Shown here one piece after another: positions 8,740 through 17,477 of a stretch of 25,547 nucleotides of DNA. A program made the translations under genes and the position numbers. Position 1 is the first letter of the stretch. Each line of letters starts with the position of its first letter. The stretch is taken from positions 1 to 25,547 of the IMG/VR virus record IMGVR_UViG_3300044825_003465. One strand, 5' to 3'. Source of the DNA: a virus. The notes beneath the pieces were generated by a model, which saw only the letters and a program-made list of their open reading frames with translations, was not told where the DNA came from and made no database searches.

Positions 8740-9107
8740 TGTTTCGCGTGAGTTTCGACATTTCGGGCATCGAGCAGAAATGCGCTCGACTGCTTGAAGC
8801 AACGGATGCTGAGATGGAAGCGTTTGTTGCGCGTTCTGGCGAGAAGATCGCAGAGAGCGCGAAGCAAACGCATCCGTTTCAGAACCACACCAACACCCTC
8901 GAAGATTCCATCGATGCGATCGAACCGACGGGACGTTCACGCGATGGATCTCTTCTCGGCGGAGCACACGCAACAGCTCCGTACGCGTCCTTCGTCAACA
9001 ACAGACCTGAGTTCGAGTTCATGAAACTCGGGTATCGATTCGTCGTTGGACAACTTCGCTCGGACTTCGCTTCGGTCGCACCACGAGCTGGTGCTCGCAC
9101 TCGATGA
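8739..9107 (+). CDS. Neck/tail completion protein (HK97 gp10-like)
   Basis: This 122-residue protein begins MFRVSFDISG and has an N-terminal helix containing ARSGEKIAESAKQTHPFQNHTNTLEDSI, followed by GGAHATAPYASFVNNRPEF and a C-terminal helix. The sequence 'helix, xHPFxNxTxxLxxSI, GxxxxAPYAxFVN, P-F' is the usual signature of HK97 gp10-like tail completion proteins, here in the role of Mu gpG. They cap the neck side of the tail and help join it to the filled head. ATG 8739 overlaps the gp36-like stop and its own stop overlaps the next ATG at 9104, so the three neck genes are tightly coupled. Confidence 0.82.
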   Translation: MFRVSFDISGIEQKCARLLEATDAEMEAFVARSGEKIAESAKQTHPFQNHTNTLEDSIDAIEPTGRSRDGSLLGGAHATAPYASFVNNRPEFEFMKLGYRFVVGQLRSDFASVAPRAGARTR

Positions 9108-10018
9108 GCGCCTCCACCACACAGCTCGGTCTCGGGCTTCTCGCAGCGCTCCAAACGCTGGTGCCCGGATCACTGAAGTACGTCGGGCAAACACGCGCTC
9201 CCATTGGTCCGAAGAATCCACCCGATCTCGAAGCCCTCGGTGCACCGACCGCAGCGCTCGTCTTCTTCGAAGGAGAAGAGCGCGTGGAACCAGCAACGGT
9301 TCGAACACTCTCGCGCGGTGTTACTCAACGCATCGGTCGCAGTTCTTGGATTGTGTCCATTGCGGTGGAAGACTCGCGCGACGCTGCTGCAGAAACGCAA
9401 GGTGCTCCTTCCACGCCTGGTCTGTGGTCGTTGATCAATGCCGTTGAAGAAGTTCTGAATGGTCTGCAAGTCGCTGCACCACCAGCGACGCTGCAACTGC
9501 GAGTCACGGGAACACCGAACGCAACGGCGATCTTTGGTGCATCGGTTCTGCAGTACGGTCCACTCTCCTACAAACCCAACGGCACCAACATTGTGCTCAA
9601 TGGTGCTGGAGAGGGAACGATCACGGCAACGCTTACCACGCTCGATGCACTCGGGAATGTTCCCAACGGAGCACCACTCTCGTGGTCATCGACGCCAGCG
9701 AACCTCGATGCAACAGCCACGGTCACAGCGACGCAAACGCAGGGAGAACGCGGTCATTATCGCGTGAGTTCCTTTGAGCTTGTTTCCAAGCGACACAACT
9801 TTTCGTTTCCTGGTGTGATGGCTGTGTACGATCTTCGACTCACCGCAGATCGAGCACTCACCGCTCGAAGCGTTGTGCAAGAGTCTGCGACGTTCGAAAC
9901 CCTCGCTGCGGATCTGAACGACGAAGGCGATAGCGAGAACGCAGAGACCACACCTGATCCCACGAATCCGCGACAAAACCCGCGCGATTCCATCACCACT
10001 CCGATTCCAACTTCCTGA
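9104..10018 (+). CDS. Tail terminator-like protein (DUF1834/Mu gp37) with inserted J-type domain
   Basis: This is a 304-residue protein. Residues 1-127 and about 215-272 look like DUF1834 (Mu gp37): an N-terminal helix, VGQTRAPIGP, a beta part with SSWIVSIAVEDSRD, the helix LWSLINAVEEVLNGLQV, and the final strands SFELVSKRHNFSFPGVMAVYDLRLTA. Between them, residues 128-210 form a beta domain starting QLRVTGTPNATAIFGASVLQ and ending PLSWSSTPANLDATATV. That is clearly related to residues 91-175 of this phage's own baseplate J protein (20701-22203). The C-terminus from 273 is disordered and Pro/Asn/Thr-rich. Mu gp37 is about half this length. Position before gp38 and sheath supports a terminator or sheath-initiation role. 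Confidence 0.8.
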   Translation: MSASTTQLGLGLLAALQTLVPGSLKYVGQTRAPIGPKNPPDLEALGAPTAALVFFEGEERVEPATVRTLSRGVTQRIGRSSWIVSIAVEDSRDAAAETQGAPSTPGLWSLINAVEEVLNGLQVAAPPATLQLRVTGTPNATAIFGASVLQYGPLSYKPNGTNIVLNGAGEGTITATLTTLDALGNVPNGAPLSWSSTPANLDATATVTATQTQGERGHYRVSSFELVSKRHNFSFPGVMAVYDLRLTADRALTARSVVQESATFETLAADLNDEGDSENAETTPDPTNPRQNPRDSITTPIPTS

Positions 10019-10245: not shown

Positions 10246-11862
10246 ATGGGAATCAACGTCCTCGGACTTTCGAGTTCTCGCAAAACTCCAGGCGCTTACC
10301 TCAGCCTGATCTTTGGTGGACCGGGAACGAGTGCGGGAAGTGCGCAGCAACGCGTTCTTCTGCTCGGAAACATGATCCCTGCAGACATCACAGGTGCATC
10401 GCCTTCCTTCACGCTCCCGAAGGGAACGGCAGCACTCGCAACGCCACTGCAACTCTTCAGCGAACGCGATGCGATCAACTACTTCGGTCGTGGAAGTGAA
10501 CTGCACTTGATGGCGAAAGCTGCCTTCGATCAAGCACCCGATCTCACGTTGTGGGCGTGTGCTGTCGGCACTGCAGGAGGAGCTGCACAGGCAGCCCAAA
10601 CGCTCGCACTCACCGGAACTGCACCCACGGCGGATCTCACCGTCACGCTCTATTGCGACGGAAAGAAGATCGAGCTGGTGATCGCGAAGAGCACCACAAC
10701 GACCGCTGCAGCTGCGGCCATTGCTGCGGCGATCAACGACGTTCCCGACCTACCGATCACCGCGCAGAACAGCACGGGAACGGTGACCTTCACGGCGAAG
10801 ACTCCGGGCGCTCGTGGCAACGCGATTCGTGTTCGCGTTGACATCCTGAATGGCACCACGCTTTCGAAACTGCGCACAGGATCACTCGCCGCAACGGTTG
10901 CAGGAACGATCTTCACCCTCGGAGCACAGAACCTCGCTGCTGGTTCCGGAACGGAAACCACGACGTTCGCGACCGCACTCGCAGCGATTGCAGCACAACG
11001 TTGGCACCGCATCGCATGCTCGGTGGTGGATGCAACGAACATCGCTGCAGCGATTGCCCTGCTCACCACGAAGGCCGGTCCCACGCAGATGTTGTGGGAA
11101 CAGATCGTCTTTGGAAACACCGAAGACTTCACGACTGCAACGGTCGGACCCCAAGCGCTCGCTGCTGGTGCGAACTTCCTTCGTGCGCAGATTCTCTGGC
11201 ACCGCCAGAGCGATCGCGTTGCAGGCATCATTGCAGCACAGGCCGCTGCTGGGCGTTTGATGGGTGATGCTTCCGTTGGTGGAACCACTGACGGAGAAAG
11301 CAGCGATCCCTCGACAAACCTCGATGGACTGCAGCTCGCAACGATTCCGGTGCAAGAACTGGTGTCCGATCAACCGCTCCCGACGGAGATCGAAACGGCG
11401 CTCAACTACGGTGTGACTCCGCTCGTTCCGAGCGCTTCGCGACCGGGCTACGTCGAGATCGCTCGATCGATCACCACACGCTTCAAGGACGATTCGGGTG
11501 CAACGAACTACGCAGTGCTCGACACGAGCGAAGTCACGATCATCGATGCGTGCGCAGATGAGATTCGCACCGATGCGCAAATTGCCTTCAAGAAGACCAA
11601 ACTGGTGGACGATGATCCAACAGGGAAACCATCGGAGATTCCACGCTCGGTGAGTCCATCGAGTATTCGAAGCTGGATCTCCGCGAAGCTCGAAGTGTTC
11701 GCATCGCGTGGGTGGATCATCAACACTGCGCTGCACGCATCGAAGCTCGCAGTAGAGCGCGACACGCTCTCACGAGGGAGAGCGAACGCAGACATTCCCC
11801 TCGAACCAGCACCGGGCTTTCACATCTTCGGCGCGAACGTGCGTCAACAACAGGCCGCGTAA
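10246..11862 (+). CDS. Contractile tail sheath protein (Mu gpL-like)
   Basis: This 538-residue protein forms the outer sheath that contracts to drive the tube into the host. The N-terminal part has KTPGAYLSLIFGGPGTSAGSAQQRVLLLGN and the motif LFSERDAINYFGRGSELHLMAKAAF. Residues about 120-205 form an inserted beta domain (ADLTVTLYCDGKKIELVI, AAAIAAAINDVPDLPITA, TFTAKTPGARGNAIRVRV), typical of Mu-type sheaths. The C-terminal part has VARSIT-like EIARSITTRFKDD, ELVSDQPLPTEIETALNYGVTPLVPS and a final helix plus beta section. It has a strong ribosome-binding site, AGGAG at 10235-10239, 6 nt before the ATG, fitting a high-copy protein. Confidence 0.93.
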   Translation: MGINVLGLSSSRKTPGAYLSLIFGGPGTSAGSAQQRVLLLGNMIPADITGASPSFTLPKGTAALATPLQLFSERDAINYFGRGSELHLMAKAAFDQAPDLTLWACAVGTAGGAAQAAQTLALTGTAPTADLTVTLYCDGKKIELVIAKSTTTTAAAAAIAAAINDVPDLPITAQNSTGTVTFTAKTPGARGNAIRVRVDILNGTTLSKLRTGSLAATVAGTIFTLGAQNLAAGSGTETTTFATALAAIAAQRWHRIACSVVDATNIAAAIALLTTKAGPTQMLWEQIVFGNTEDFTTATVGPQALAAGANFLRAQILWHRQSDRVAGIIAAQAAAGRLMGDASVGGTTDGESSDPSTNLDGLQLATIPVQELVSDQPLPTEIETALNYGVTPLVPSASRPGYVEIARSITTRFKDDSGATNYAVLDTSEVTIIDACADEIRTDAQIAFKKTKLVDDDPTGKPSEIPRSVSPSSIRSWISAKLEVFASRGWIINTALHASKLAVERDTLSRGRANADIPLEPAPGFHIFGANVRQQQAA

Positions 11863-11886: not shown

Positions 11887-12270
11887 ATGGCAACTGCTCC
11901 CGAATACAGCGGACCGGGAACGATCTACTTCAACGGTCGCCTTCTCGCTGAGGCTTCGCAGATCACTGTCAAAACCACGTCCAACGACAAAGACGTCAAG
12001 ACCCTCGCGAAAGGACTCTCCGGCTTCAGCAATGGAGCACAGGAAACGAGCGTTGACTTCGACAACGCTGTGCCGATCGAAGGCATGGAAGAAGAGTTCG
12101 ACGAGATCTGTCATTCCCACCAAACCGTGCAGATCGGTGTTCGCTTCGGAAAAGTGCAGATCGAAGTGGTTGGAAGATTCATGGACATCTCGCAAACCAC
12201 CGACGTCGACAACCCCAACAAAGTTGCGGTGCAATTCAAGGGACGCCGCATCTCGCGCGTGAAGGTCTAA
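11887..12270 (+). CDS. Tail tube protein (Mu gpM-like)
   Basis: This 127-residue, mostly beta protein follows the sheath, as in Mu. It has IYFNGRLLAEASQITVKTTSNDKDVKTLAKGLSGFS, then ETSVDFDNAVPIEGMEEEFDEICHSHQTVQIGV, then the strands KVQIEVVGRFMDISQTTDVDNPNKVAVQFKGRRI. The pattern 'G-x-I-Y-x-N-G ... T-L-x-x-G-x-x-G-F-S ... V-x-x-x-F-x-G' is that of gpM-type tube proteins. Hexamer rings stack inside the sheath to form the DNA channel. AAAGGAAAGAG at 11872-11882 is a strong ribosome-binding site. The next gene starts one base after the stop. Confidence 0.88.
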   Translation: MATAPEYSGPGTIYFNGRLLAEASQITVKTTSNDKDVKTLAKGLSGFSNGAQETSVDFDNAVPIEGMEEEFDEICHSHQTVQIGVRFGKVQIEVVGRFMDISQTTDVDNPNKVAVQFKGRRISRVKV

Positions 12271-12271
12271 C

Positions 12272-12921
12272 GTGAGCGACGAGAAAAACGAGGGAGGGCT
12301 CTCACTGCTCTCTTCTCTGCTCAACGGCGCAGAGACCACGGCTCGCAAGATCGATCTTCCTCCACGACTAAAAGCACTCGCAGTCGAGCGTTCGCCAGAG
12401 GATCCGAACGCGGGACGTGTTGCACTCGTAGCGCTCACCGACGAACAGATCCAGGAAGCTCACTTCGAGGCGTTCGAGCACCTTCGCAAGAAGAAGAACG
12501 CACCGCCAGAGTGGTACTGGGAAACAGAAGACGGACGCGCACAGAAGCACAACGAGCTGCAGGTTCAGGTACTTCATCGCGCTCTTCGACATCCAACAGT
12601 GACGCTTCGGCACTTTGCAACGAGCGTTGGTCAGCTTCGCGGAGCACTGTTTCCCGACGAACGCGAGTACCTGATGCAAGAGTACTTGCGTTTTGCGATT
12701 GATCGTCGCCCGTACGAAACACTCACACCAGCCGCGCTGGACAAGCTGGTCGATGACGCGGGAAAAGGCTGTCTCGAAGCGACATCGTTGAGCTGTTACG
12801 ATGCCGCTTCGCTCTGCTCCATCACGCTCGAACTGGCGAGTCAGCTCTCTGCGCTACAGAGCAGACTCTCGTTGGTTACTACGTTGCAGAACGACTCTAC
12901 ACCCGACTCTTCCCTGCATAA
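12272..12921 (+). CDS. Predicted -1 frameshift form of the tail chaperone
   Basis: Slipping one base back at GGGAAAA keeps residues 1-165 and then reads AGG from 12766. The -1 frame stays open for 51 codons to a TAA at 12919-12921, giving 216 residues. The new C-terminus contains SDIVELLRCRFALLHHA and ends GYYVAERLYTRLFPA; its last third uses codons favoured in this window (GTT, GCA, GAA, CGA, CTC, TAC). Lambda G/GT and P2 E/E' use the same logic to make a minor chaperone form. Unlike those, the shifted and unshifted proteins here are nearly equal in length, so the ratio may matter more than size. Confidence 0.5.
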
Positions 12922-12928
12922 TTCCTGA
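12272..12928 (+). CDS. Tail assembly chaperone (zero-frame product)
   Basis: This is a 218-residue product from GTG 12272, located between the tube and the tape measure, the invariant place for tail assembly chaperones, which wrap the tape measure and recruit tube protein. Residues 35-165 are mainly helical and charged (LTDEQIQEAHFEAFEHLRKK, EWYWETEDGRAQKHNEL, TLRHFATSVGQLRGALFPDEREYLMQEYLRFAID). After residue 165 the zero-frame C-terminus is Ser/Leu/Thr-rich. A -1 frameshift signal lies at codons 164-165 (see 12760-12811). I do not recognise a named family; position and the frameshift signal carry the call. Confidence 0.75.
   Translation: MSDEKNEGGLSLLSSLLNGAETTARKIDLPPRLKALAVERSPEDPNAGRVALVALTDEQIQEAHFEAFEHLRKKKNAPPEWYWETEDGRAQKHNELQVQVLHRALRHPTVTLRHFATSVGQLRGALFPDEREYLMQEYLRFAIDRRPYETLTPAALDKLVDDAGKGCLEATSLSCYDAASLCSITLELASQLSALQSRLSLVTTLQNDSTPDSSLHNS
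12760..12811 (+). promoter_or_regulatory. Programmed -1 frameshift signal: slippery site, spacer, hairpin
   Basis: GGGAAAA at 12760-12766 is in the required X-XXY-YYZ phase: zero-frame codons are GGA (12761) and AAA (12764), and both re-pair after a -1 slip. An 8-nt spacer (12767-12774) leads to a hairpin. Its 5' arm is 12775-12788 and its 3' arm 12798-12811: 7 bp (CGAAGCG/CGCTTCG), one A-C mismatch, 6 bp (CATCGT/ACGATG) and a 9-nt loop. Heptamer, spacer length and stem all match known -1 frameshift signals. I checked the pairing base by base. Confidence 0.72.
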
Positions 12929-12934
12929 TCGTTC

Positions 12935-15142
12935 GTGGCAGACGCACTCTTCACACTCGGCGGTGACTCCTCCGAGTTCCGTTCGGTTCTTGGCCTGGTG
13001 CTTCGCGACAGTCGCAGAACTGCAGCCGCAGTGCTTGGCGATTGGAAGCGCATTGCCACGGAAGTGAACCGCTCACAGCGTGAGATCTCAGCAAGCGCGA
13101 CTCGATCGGCTGCAGCGGTGCGCACAGCAAGTGAACGCACTGCGTTAGTTGCACAGGTGAGCCAACGCGCACAAACGAACGCAACCAAGGCTGGTGTTGA
13201 TGAGCGCGTCCGTGTGACCGAAGCAGGCGTCAATCGCCAGATTCGGAGCATCGATCGCATTCGCGCTGTGTGGGCGAGTGTTGAGCGCGCGAACACAGCA
13301 GCAACGCTTCGCGAAGAGCAAGCACGCAACCGAGTTCGAGAGCGAAGTGTTGCGCGTGGTCGATCAACGGGAACGAGTGTCGTGCAAGGTGCTGCGGGTG
13401 CTGTTTCGCAATTCGCCAGTGGCGCACACGGACAGATTCAGGACGCACGGCAACGTCGCGCGGGAACTGAACACACGCTCAACAGCGCATTCTACCAGGC
13501 AGGAATCACTGGGAACGAAGCGAACGGAATGCGTGCGCAGATCCTTCGCGAAGTCACTACGGGACGATTGCGGGGCCTTGAATCGAACGACGTAGCAAGC
13601 GCCATTTCAGCAGCACAAACGCAGTTCTCAGTGCTTTCGCAAACTGACGAACAACGCCGCAGTGGAATGACAGCGGAATCGTCGCGGCAAGAAAACCTGA
13701 ACAACGCTCTCTCTGCAATCGAGTTCGCGCGTAACACCTACCAAGATCCGGGCGAGGTGCTGCGTGTTGTAGGCATGCTCAATCAGCAGGGCGTTCGAGG
13801 AGATCAACAGCGCGAGGTGCTTCGATCGCTCACGGGTATCGCACAAGCAGGTTCGATCGAACTCCGCGACGTGATCGGACAGGCACTCGGACCGCTAATG
13901 CAAAACATCTCAGTTGCAACGGGACGTTTGGGTTCAAATGCAACCGAGGCAGACCGTTCTCGTGCTGTTCGAGAAGCCGCTGCTCGAACCCTTGCCGTAG
14001 GTGAAGTAGCCGCGGCGGCAGGTCCCACTGCCCGCGACGCGCTCAACGGATACGCAAAGCTCCAGCGCAGTTTTAGTTCCGATCGAGTGACGCAGAATCT
14101 CTACGAAACGCTGCACGAACGTGGAGCATCAGGCAGAGCTGTAGCTAGCGAGCTGTTTGAATCGACCATCAATGACCGCGGTCAGCAAGTGCATCGACTG
14201 CGCAACAACGATCCTCTGCAAGTGATGTCTCGGCTGATGCAGTGGGCAGGCGGAGACACCACACGCGTGCTGAACATGCTTCAGGGGGGCGGTCGAGGAG
14301 ATCCACAGATCGTTGACTCGCAAGTGCGGCGATTTGTCAGTGCTCTGCAATCTCAATCCGGCTCAGGAACAATGGCAGATCGTGTGCAGTCACTCGTGCA
14401 ACAGGGCTCGTCGTTCACTGCAGCGGATGAAGCGCGTGGTGCTTCAATGCGGAATGCCGAGCAATTGACCGCGCTCACAACAAACAACGAAGTGCGTGAC
14501 ACCGCAGTGACCGAGAACACAACATGGCTCGCGCGTCTCTCGAACCAGTTTGCAGACTTCACCGCAAACAACCCGTTCACCGTGCTTGCTGCGGCTGCCT
14601 TCGGAAGACCACTCGCGAGTTGGGGGCTTGGAAAGCTCGGTGGAGCCGTCGGTGGACGCATGGCTGGATTGCTCGGTGGTGGAGGAGCTGCTGGTGGAGG
14701 AGCCGCGGGTGGTAGTGCCGTTGCCGGAGCGGGTGGAGGGATGGCAGCGCGCGTGCTCTCGTATCTTGGACTTGGTGGGACTGCCGTTGGACTCACTGGA
14801 GCTGCGTTCGCGGACCTGAACACCGAGGCCAACAACCGCACGGGTACAACTTTCGGGCAACGTGCGCGTGCGTTCTTCGGTGACGGCGAAGAAGAACTCG
14901 GGGCCTCTGTTGAGGCTCGGCGGACAGCCGAAGAGCGCAGACAAGAGAACCAGCGCTGGAATCCTGCGATGGCGGGACTCGCTGCTACGCCAGGCACGCC
15001 CCTTCACGTTCGCGTCGATGCCCAATCCCTCGCCGGTTTCGCGCAAGCGCTTCGAGCCAGCCCGATGATGATTCGTGTGGACCCTCACGATGCTGCGCAC
15101 CAAAACGCGATGGCTGCTGGTAGTCGTGCGAGGGAACAATGA
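12935..15142 (+). CDS. Tail tape measure protein
   Basis: This 735-residue protein follows the chaperone, with a GTG start at 12935, 6 nt after the chaperone's zero-frame stop. Residues 1-170 are long helices rich in Arg, Ala, Thr and Gln. Residues 170-540 are helical with the segment NQQGVRGDQQREVLRSLTGIAQAG typical of tape-measure cores. Residues about 560-650 contain two Gly/Ala-rich hydrophobic stretches, the probable membrane-active part. The end, LHVRVDAQSLAGFAQALRASPMMIRVDP, is beta-like. At about 0.15 nm per residue (the established ruler relation) it would set a tail near 110 nm. No peptidase or lysozyme domain is seen. The stop overlaps the next ATG (15139). Confidence 0.92.
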   Translation: MADALFTLGGDSSEFRSVLGLVLRDSRRTAAAVLGDWKRIATEVNRSQREISASATRSAAAVRTASERTALVAQVSQRAQTNATKAGVDERVRVTEAGVNRQIRSIDRIRAVWASVERANTAATLREEQARNRVRERSVARGRSTGTSVVQGAAGAVSQFASGAHGQIQDARQRRAGTEHTLNSAFYQAGITGNEANGMRAQILREVTTGRLRGLESNDVASAISAAQTQFSVLSQTDEQRRSGMTAESSRQENLNNALSAIEFARNTYQDPGEVLRVVGMLNQQGVRGDQQREVLRSLTGIAQAGSIELRDVIGQALGPLMQNISVATGRLGSNATEADRSRAVREAAARTLAVGEVAAAAGPTARDALNGYAKLQRSFSSDRVTQNLYETLHERGASGRAVASELFESTINDRGQQVHRLRNNDPLQVMSRLMQWAGGDTTRVLNMLQGGGRGDPQIVDSQVRRFVSALQSQSGSGTMADRVQSLVQQGSSFTAADEARGASMRNAEQLTALTTNNEVRDTAVTENTTWLARLSNQFADFTANNPFTVLAAAAFGRPLASWGLGKLGGAVGGRMAGLLGGGGAAGGGAAGGSAVAGAGGGMAARVLSYLGLGGTAVGLTGAAFADLNTEANNRTGTTFGQRARAFFGDGEEELGASVEARRTAEERRQENQRWNPAMAGLAATPGTPLHVRVDAQSLAGFAQALRASPMMIRVDPHDAAHQNAMAAGSRAREQ

Positions 15143-16070: not shown

Positions 16071-17477
16071 ATGGCGAACGCAATCGCACACGATGTACAG
16101 CTCTTGCTCAAGAGCACGGGACGAGTGCTCACGAACTGGGATCGCTACACCGTCTCGCTCGATATGTTCAACGTAGGGCAACCCTGGACGTTCTCTCTCT
16201 GGTATTCCGAGCGAGAACAAAGCGCGTGGCAAACACTGCAAGACGAAGTGAAGCTCGGCGGAACAATCGTGCTCTCCATCGATGGAGCGCCACAGCTCAC
16301 CGGCATCATCGAAGAGCTGAGCACTCCAGAATCACGCAATGGATTCTCGATGGTGATTTCGGGACGCGACATTGCAGCCTCTGCTCTCGATTGGGACGCA
16401 GATCCGCGAACGGTGGTTTCCAATCGTCCGTTGGGCGATGTGCTCGAACTGCTTTTCTCGCAACTAGGAATCGCCGTCGATGTGGTGGAGTCGAGCGCTG
16501 CTCGCGAAGTGCAATCACGCGCACGTCGAGGAGCACGCGCAACGGAGCGATCGACGAGAAGACGAGCACACCGCGTTGATTCCTCGCATCCTCGTCCTGA
16601 TGAGACGGTGTGGCAAGTAGTGCAATCTCTGCTCGATCGCTTGGGATTGATGGCGTGGGTGGCTCCGAGTGCGCAAGGCGGACTCGCCATCGTCGTCGAT
16701 GTTCCGGCGTATGACTCACCACCGCTGTATCAGCTCGAACGATCTGCGCGACTCACTGAAACCGACCGACGGCTAGTCGAGACGGATCTGAAATGCTCGA
16801 TTCGCGGTATTCCAACGGTGGTCTACGCATCGGGACGTGCGAAGCGCGGCGATGCACCACCCGCACGTCATCGCGTGCAATACGACGTGCCAAGCATGGC
16901 GAATGTGCCGCCCGGAGTGATTCGTGCGCCAACATCAGGAGTCGCAAACCTCTCGATCGATGTGCTTGGAGCTTCCATCGGACCTTCGTTGACTTCCGCA
17001 GGCAACCCCATCGCATTCAATCAAGAACCGACCATCGTTCGTCCTGGAGTCCGCATCATCTCGGAGCGCCACGAAGCTCCTCCTGCGCAAGCAACCAGGC
17101 GCGCGTACACGAACGATCAACTCGCTGCGTGGTCGTTCGTGCAGAATCCACTCCCTCCACAACCGAAGTACTTGCACTCTTCGCGAGCGAAGAATCCGTC
17201 GCAAGGTGAACGCGAAGCGCGAAGGTTCATGGCGAAGAAGATGCGGAACTTTCGCATCTATATGGGCACGCTGCACGGGCACGGGCAAGAAGTGAACGGA
17301 GCACGGAGACTCTTCGCCCTCAACACGATGGCTCATCTTCGCGACACGTTCCGAAACATCGACGAAGACATGCTCATCACGGGATGCGAGTTCTCGGGTT
17401 CTCGTGCCGATGGACAGCGAACGCGTTTGACCTTGGGAACCAAGGGCGCAATCAACCTCGAACCGGATCCACAATGA
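16071..17477 (+). CDS. Baseplate hub protein (Mu gpP/gp44-like)
   Basis: This is a 468-residue protein. The first 130 residues have GQPWTFSLWYSEREQSAWQTLQDEVKLGGTIVLSIDGAPQLTGIIEEL, then VISGRDIAASALDW and GDVLELLFSQLGI, which is the hub pattern of gpP/gpD proteins (beta tube mimic, then GRD). PDETVWQVVQSLLDRLGLMAWVAPSAQGGLAIVVD continues the family layout; the end has RRLFALNTMAHLRD, DEDMLITGCEFS and a final strand TRLTLG. Residues about 143-172 are a very Arg-rich stretch between two canonical parts, which looks like a local insertion. The protein forms the trimer that carries the spike. It follows the LysM-like gene by 3 nt and its stop overlaps the spike start. Confidence 0.88.
   Translation: MANAIAHDVQLLLKSTGRVLTNWDRYTVSLDMFNVGQPWTFSLWYSEREQSAWQTLQDEVKLGGTIVLSIDGAPQLTGIIEELSTPESRNGFSMVISGRDIAASALDWDADPRTVVSNRPLGDVLELLFSQLGIAVDVVESSAAREVQSRARRGARATERSTRRRAHRVDSSHPRPDETVWQVVQSLLDRLGLMAWVAPSAQGGLAIVVDVPAYDSPPLYQLERSARLTETDRRLVETDLKCSIRGIPTVVYASGRAKRGDAPPARHRVQYDVPSMANVPPGVIRAPTSGVANLSIDVLGASIGPSLTSAGNPIAFNQEPTIVRPGVRIISERHEAPPAQATRRAYTNDQLAAWSFVQNPLPPQPKYLHSSRAKNPSQGEREARRFMAKKMRNFRIYMGTLHGHGQEVNGARRLFALNTMAHLRDTFRNIDEDMLITGCEFSGSRADGQRTRLTLGTKGAINLEPDPQ

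Follow-up and report, generated by a model that had tools for sequence, protein, structure and literature searches.

The tail assembly chaperones G and GT of phage lambda arise by -1 frameshifting on a GGGAAAG heptamer; the domain common to both binds the tape measure protein, and the domain encoded in the -1 frame recruits tail tube subunits (PMC5009743). Phage Mu, in its gp41 region, instead shifts by -2, which brings its ribosomes into the +1 frame (PMC5009743). We analysed a 25.5-kb virus record (the window, that is, the whole stretch of 25,547 nucleotides), which encodes the head and the contractile tail of a Mu-like phage. One of its genes, located between those for the tail tube and the tape measure, very probably gives rise to two tail assembly chaperones from a single start by a -1 frameshift of the lambda G/GT type. 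This sequence-based reading, in which we have high confidence, draws on the frameshift signal, its phase, the conservation of the -1 frame, the predicted chaperone fold and the position of the gene. The features concerned are the following (window coordinates).

10246-11862, tail sheath (phrog_165, 8.5e-71).
11887-12270, tail tube (weak phrog_185 match, 0.021; the tube of the relative L168 matches at 7e-13).
12272-12928, + strand, putative zero-frame tail assembly chaperone, G-like, 218 aa, with a GTG start (translation, synteny, AF2 fold, family alignment).
12754-12756, + strand, TGA stop in the -1 frame, 3 nt before the heptamer, bounding the shift interval (sequence).
12760-12766, + strand, slippery heptamer G_GGA_AAA, in phase for -1 slippage (sequence; counterparts in relatives).
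12760-12921, + strand, -1 frame tail, a T-like domain extending 51 codons past the heptamer (translation, HMM, AF2, start-codon check).
12767-12774, + strand, spacer of 8 nt (sequence).
12767-12928, + strand, zero-frame continuation of 53 codons, overlapping the -1 tail and ending at TGA 12926-12928 (translation).
12775-12811, + strand, hairpin of 7 + 6 bp with one A-C mismatch and a 9-nt loop, a candidate stimulator (MFE fold).
12935-15142, + strand, tape measure (tblastn to the tape measures of the relatives L165 and L166, E 2e-44 and 5e-30; phrog_17727, E 0.0023).

The Mu-like character of the phage, a distant relation of Mu itself, is evident from its portal (Portal_Mu match, 2.8e-43); the window further contains a major head protein (phrog_1005 match), a DNA-circularisation-type protein and baseplate genes. 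A Mu gp37-like neck protein (9104-10018) shows a weak match to a bacterial Ig-like domain (Big_1) in its C-terminal part. The chaperone ORF lies between tube and tape measure, and the sheath precedes the tube. The zero frame of the chaperone is also that of the tape measure; only the stop and two further codons, TGA TCG TTC, stand before the GTG start of the tape measure (12926-12937), and readthrough of this single stop would fuse the two proteins. The sole close relative, the near-identical contig IMGVR_UViG_3300047557_004539 (L001), is identical to the window across the chaperone gene. Over 10,654 aligned bases the two differ at 14 positions, all within 62 bases (16175-16236) of ORF 16071-17477 and 12 of them at third codon positions; the pattern suggests that a short patch was acquired by recombination with a diverged allele, or that an assembly is chimeric.

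Searches of Pfam and PHROG with the window protein and ten relatives returned no chaperone match. Tail chaperones diverge fast, however, and the lack of a family match therefore does not exclude such a role. An AF2 model of the window protein based on 12 aligned family members (mean pLDDT 79) found its best solved match in the HK97 tail assembly chaperone gp13 (2ob9; Z 9.3 over 101 residues, rmsd 3.4, model residues 12-143), followed by the prophage protein YqbN (3klu; Z 7.5), with other chains at 4.4 and below. Foldseek also ranks 2ob9 first, but weakly (E 0.12). The likeness is one of predicted fold: sequence identity to gp13 and YqbN is ~10%, and the window protein is longer, with an extra C-terminal helix region. 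Between the end of the fold-matched part and the slip site (codons 164-165) lie ~20 residues. Synteny and predicted fold together support the identification of the gene product as a tail assembly chaperone, the name it had received in a first-pass annotation.

That annotation had described a textbook -1 frameshift signal, namely GGGAAAA in the correct phase, then a spacer of 8 nt, then a hairpin of 13 bp with one A-C mismatch and a 9-nt loop, and all of these elements were recovered at their coordinates. The heptamer is in phase within ORF 12272-12928, its zero-frame codons being GGA (12761-12763) and AAA (12764-12766) and the corresponding -1 codons GGG and AAA. Translation likewise bore out the two reading frames: the -1 frame stays open for 51 codons and closes at TAA 12919-12921, just before the GTG of the tape measure at 12935, and the zero frame continues for 53 codons, giving predicted products of 216 aa (-1 frame) and 218 aa (zero frame) with different C-termini. 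The part of the textbook description that did not extend to relatives is the hairpin. Its arms (12775-12788 paired with 12798-12811) form a 14-position stem with at most one mismatch that is unique on the + strand of the window (mono-shuffles gave 2, 0 and 0), and among random window positions 1% have a hairpin of at least this stability at a spacing of 5-9 nt. Plain folding is less striking, with z -1.63 for 64 nt and 9% of 50-mers as stable. No counterpart was found in the sequences of 15 relatives, Rfam gave no match, and a promoter and terminator scan revealed nothing relevant on the + strand. The hairpin may stimulate slippage in the window phage; judged from these comparisons it is not a family feature but a candidate stimulator only.

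Relatives were reached through sheath alignments, which yielded 20 of them, mainly Myxococcota prophages and uncultured viruses, and thus 21 loci with the window. Scans of viral contigs with single proteins (chaperone, sheath, tube) found only L001, and tblastn of the chaperone against phages gave no match. The relatives share the order sheath-tube-chaperone-tape measure; one further locus, L178, is cut off by a contig end and was excluded from the counts. Counting the window, 16 of the 21 loci carry an in-phase X_XXY_YYZ heptamer within the last 100 codons, against an expectation of ~1.9. Within the same stretch of the 21 homologous genes, 17 heptamers are in phase versus 4 and 2 in the other phases. 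At the homologous place the relatives carry AAATTTT, CCCTTTA, CCCTTTC, TTTTTTA or TTTTTTG, and their -1 frame mostly ends near the start of the tape measure. The identical scan applied to lambda recovered its GGGAAAG site. The first-pass annotation had held that a heptamer or -1 frame without conservation in related phages would speak against frameshifting; both proved to be conserved.

The five loci without a canonical heptamer are L166, L170, L177, L260 and L261. In all five the -1 frame runs past the zero-frame stop, and candidate shift sites include, for example, GATTTTC or GCAAAAAGC. Elsewhere in the family, the T-like domain of L263, L265, L266 and L268 is followed by another ORF, of ~200 aa, that looks like a second chaperone-type protein, and in the first three of these loci this ORF ends directly at the start of the tape measure. 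Homing-endonuclease-like genes (HNH- and GIY-YIG-like by eye) lie between chaperone and tape measure in L179 (9368-10039) and L188 (3478-4143).

As to which C-terminus is conserved, a profile HMM of the -1 tail built from L165, L166, L170, L260 and L261, with the window left out, picked window segment 12757-12918 first among 589 six-frame segments (E 2.2e-11; the next at 0.12). The matching test with an HMM of the zero-frame tail also ranked the zero-frame ORF first, but with E 0.014. It is the model of the five nearest relatives that recognises the -1 tail of the window, whereas a broad T-domain HMM from 15 diverse relatives scores it weakly (E 0.39, 49,024 segments). The zero frames of L165, L166 and L260 stop early enough to leave much of the conserved -1 tail outside the overlap, and the conservation of this tail is therefore not a by-product of constraint on the zero frame. 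AF2 folds the -1 tail of the window as two helices (pLDDT 80). By this comparison of sequences, the -1 frame is the conserved frame.

The first-pass annotation had singled out as odd the long run of the zero frame, with its pair of nearly equal products. The layout is real, yet not exceptional: zero-frame tails in the chaperone family measure 39-90 codons from the heptamer, and the zero frame ends after the -1 frame in 8 of the 16 heptamer loci, or 7 of 15 when the window is set aside. We found no description of an equal-length layout for tail chaperones in the mostly open-access literature searched. One explanation would be a separate function for the C-terminal 53 residues of the 218-aa product, which would then be a second, specialised isoform, with both chaperones functional. 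When the 16 loci are pooled, the zero frame is indeed more open than in synonymous shuffles that keep the -1 protein (769 versus 538 +/- 76 codons, P 0.0005), a value that is indicative only, as the shuffles treat loci as independent and use rough codon tables. In addition, a hydrophobic helix pattern recurs after the slip site in the zero frame of relatives, and the AF2 model has a helix there (residues 178-207). For the window alone, however, the open zero frame is expected from the shuffles (P 0.73), the similarity of the zero-frame tails is weak (the E 0.014 given above), and the last part of the tail is of low complexity and variable length among relatives. We consider a specialised isoform unlikely. 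We take some constraint to act on the first 25-40 codons of the zero-frame tail, and regard the low-complexity sequence after them as a run-on of variable length. The tail as a whole is probably a by-product of overlapping coding, its run-on end having no special function in the window phage.

A related proposal for this phage group is that both frames are genuinely coding downstream of the slip site. Slippage would then exchange one working C-terminus for another instead of lengthening a short protein, and the zero-frame chaperone would have a conserved C-terminal helix and tail of its own, over the whole of which the T-like domain is also encoded; we regard this as conceivable but rather doubtful. 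Codon usage in the overlap does not decide between the frames: the scores of 0.012 and 0.040 in the two frames, against a mean of 0.23 per codon in ordinary genes, are expected of dual coding but also of weak coding.

Far less probable is that heptamer and hairpin are coincidental, that only the zero-frame protein is made and that the -1 opening reflects codon usage. As a bare word GGGAAAA is unremarkable, with one occurrence on both strands of the window versus 1.57 expected, and -1 openings of such length are found at 35% of codon positions in the window's genes; given the zero-frame protein, an open -1 frame has P 0.17. In-phase XXXYYYZ heptamers with Y = A or T are nonetheless rare, with three in the ~6,000 codons of the window's genes. 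The case against chance rests on comparative evidence: the -1 tail is homologous to that of relatives, and 16 of 21 loci have a heptamer in the same position and phase, both of which contradict coincidence.

Phages often have genes that overlap, one starting inside another, and the T-like domain could in this way be a separate protein made without frameshifting. Yet the -1 segment contains no ATG, GTG or TTG between the upstream TGA (12754-12756) and the TAA at its end, and slippery sites recur in relatives where the -1 frame opens, which makes an internal start highly improbable. Since the -1 frame opens only after that TGA and is devoid of start codons, slippage is the only plausible entry. 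Ribosomes must enter the -1 frame within about 12757-12790, and GGGAAAA is the sole canonical slippery site there. Just as improbable is an assembly error, an indel that divided a single long gene between two frames. The window's version of the gene is known from two contigs only, possibly from one sample, but relatives from other genomes show the matching -1 arrangement, both frames are open for more than 50 codons, and L001 carries no indel. Use of the +1 frame, suggested by the Mu-like nature of the phage and by the -2 shift of Mu in this region (PMC5009743), is excluded by the sequence to the point of being virtually inconceivable, as TGA 12789-12791 closes the +1/-2 frame 23 nt after the heptamer.

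Under the favoured reading, a -1 frameshift producing two chaperones, most ribosomes would stay in frame and make the 218-aa G-like protein, and a minority would slip by -1 on G_GGA_AAA to make a 216-aa G-T fusion. Slippage would involve tRNA-Gly and tRNA-Lys re-pairing from GGA_AAA to GGG_AAA, perhaps aided by the hairpin 8 nt downstream. The last 51 residues of the fusion would form the T-like domain, which is predicted to have two helices and is conserved in relatives. On the lambda model, the N-terminal domain common to both products may bind the tape measure and the T-like domain may recruit tail tube subunits.

Compared with the described systems, the locus resembles lambda G/GT in lying just before the tape measure, in its in-phase XXXYYYZ heptamer of the GGGAAA type and in a -1 frame that ends near the tape measure start, the chaperone role being assigned here by position and predicted fold. 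It departs from lambda in proportions. Counted from the start of the heptamer, the lambda zero frame has 7 codons and the -1 tail 146, and the window has 55 and 53, with products of equal length; the zero frame ending 55 codons from the heptamer departs from the short/long layout, which is typical of the lambda arrangement but does not define it. With overlapping tails, the effect of a 'different C-terminus' can be told apart from that of a 'longer' product, which makes the locus a natural test of the purpose of the frameshift: if equal-length products work, it is the T-like domain that counts, not the extra length. The nearest counterparts are the chaperones of Mu-like Myxococcota prophages and uncultured viruses (L165, L166, L167, L168, L189, L190, L193, L198 and others), which are encoded by a homologous gene and share the place and phase of the heptamer where one is present, a related -1 tail and an overlapping zero-frame tail; they differ in having CCCTTTA, TTTTTTA/G or AAATTTT instead, and in the absence of a conserved hairpin. 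The class of frameshifting tail chaperones is known and the mechanism widespread among phages; the window adds a new member, from a family absent from the libraries searched and unrecognised by Pfam and PHROGs, with an overlapping layout that relatives share. With Mu the window shares the order of genes (portal, head, sheath, tube, chaperone, tape measure, DNA circularisation protein, baseplate), but Mu uses the +1 frame, which is closed in the window, where the -1 frame is open. The locus would thereby extend -1 frameshifting of tail chaperones to a Mu-like contractile-tailed lineage whose prototype, Mu itself, shifts by -2.
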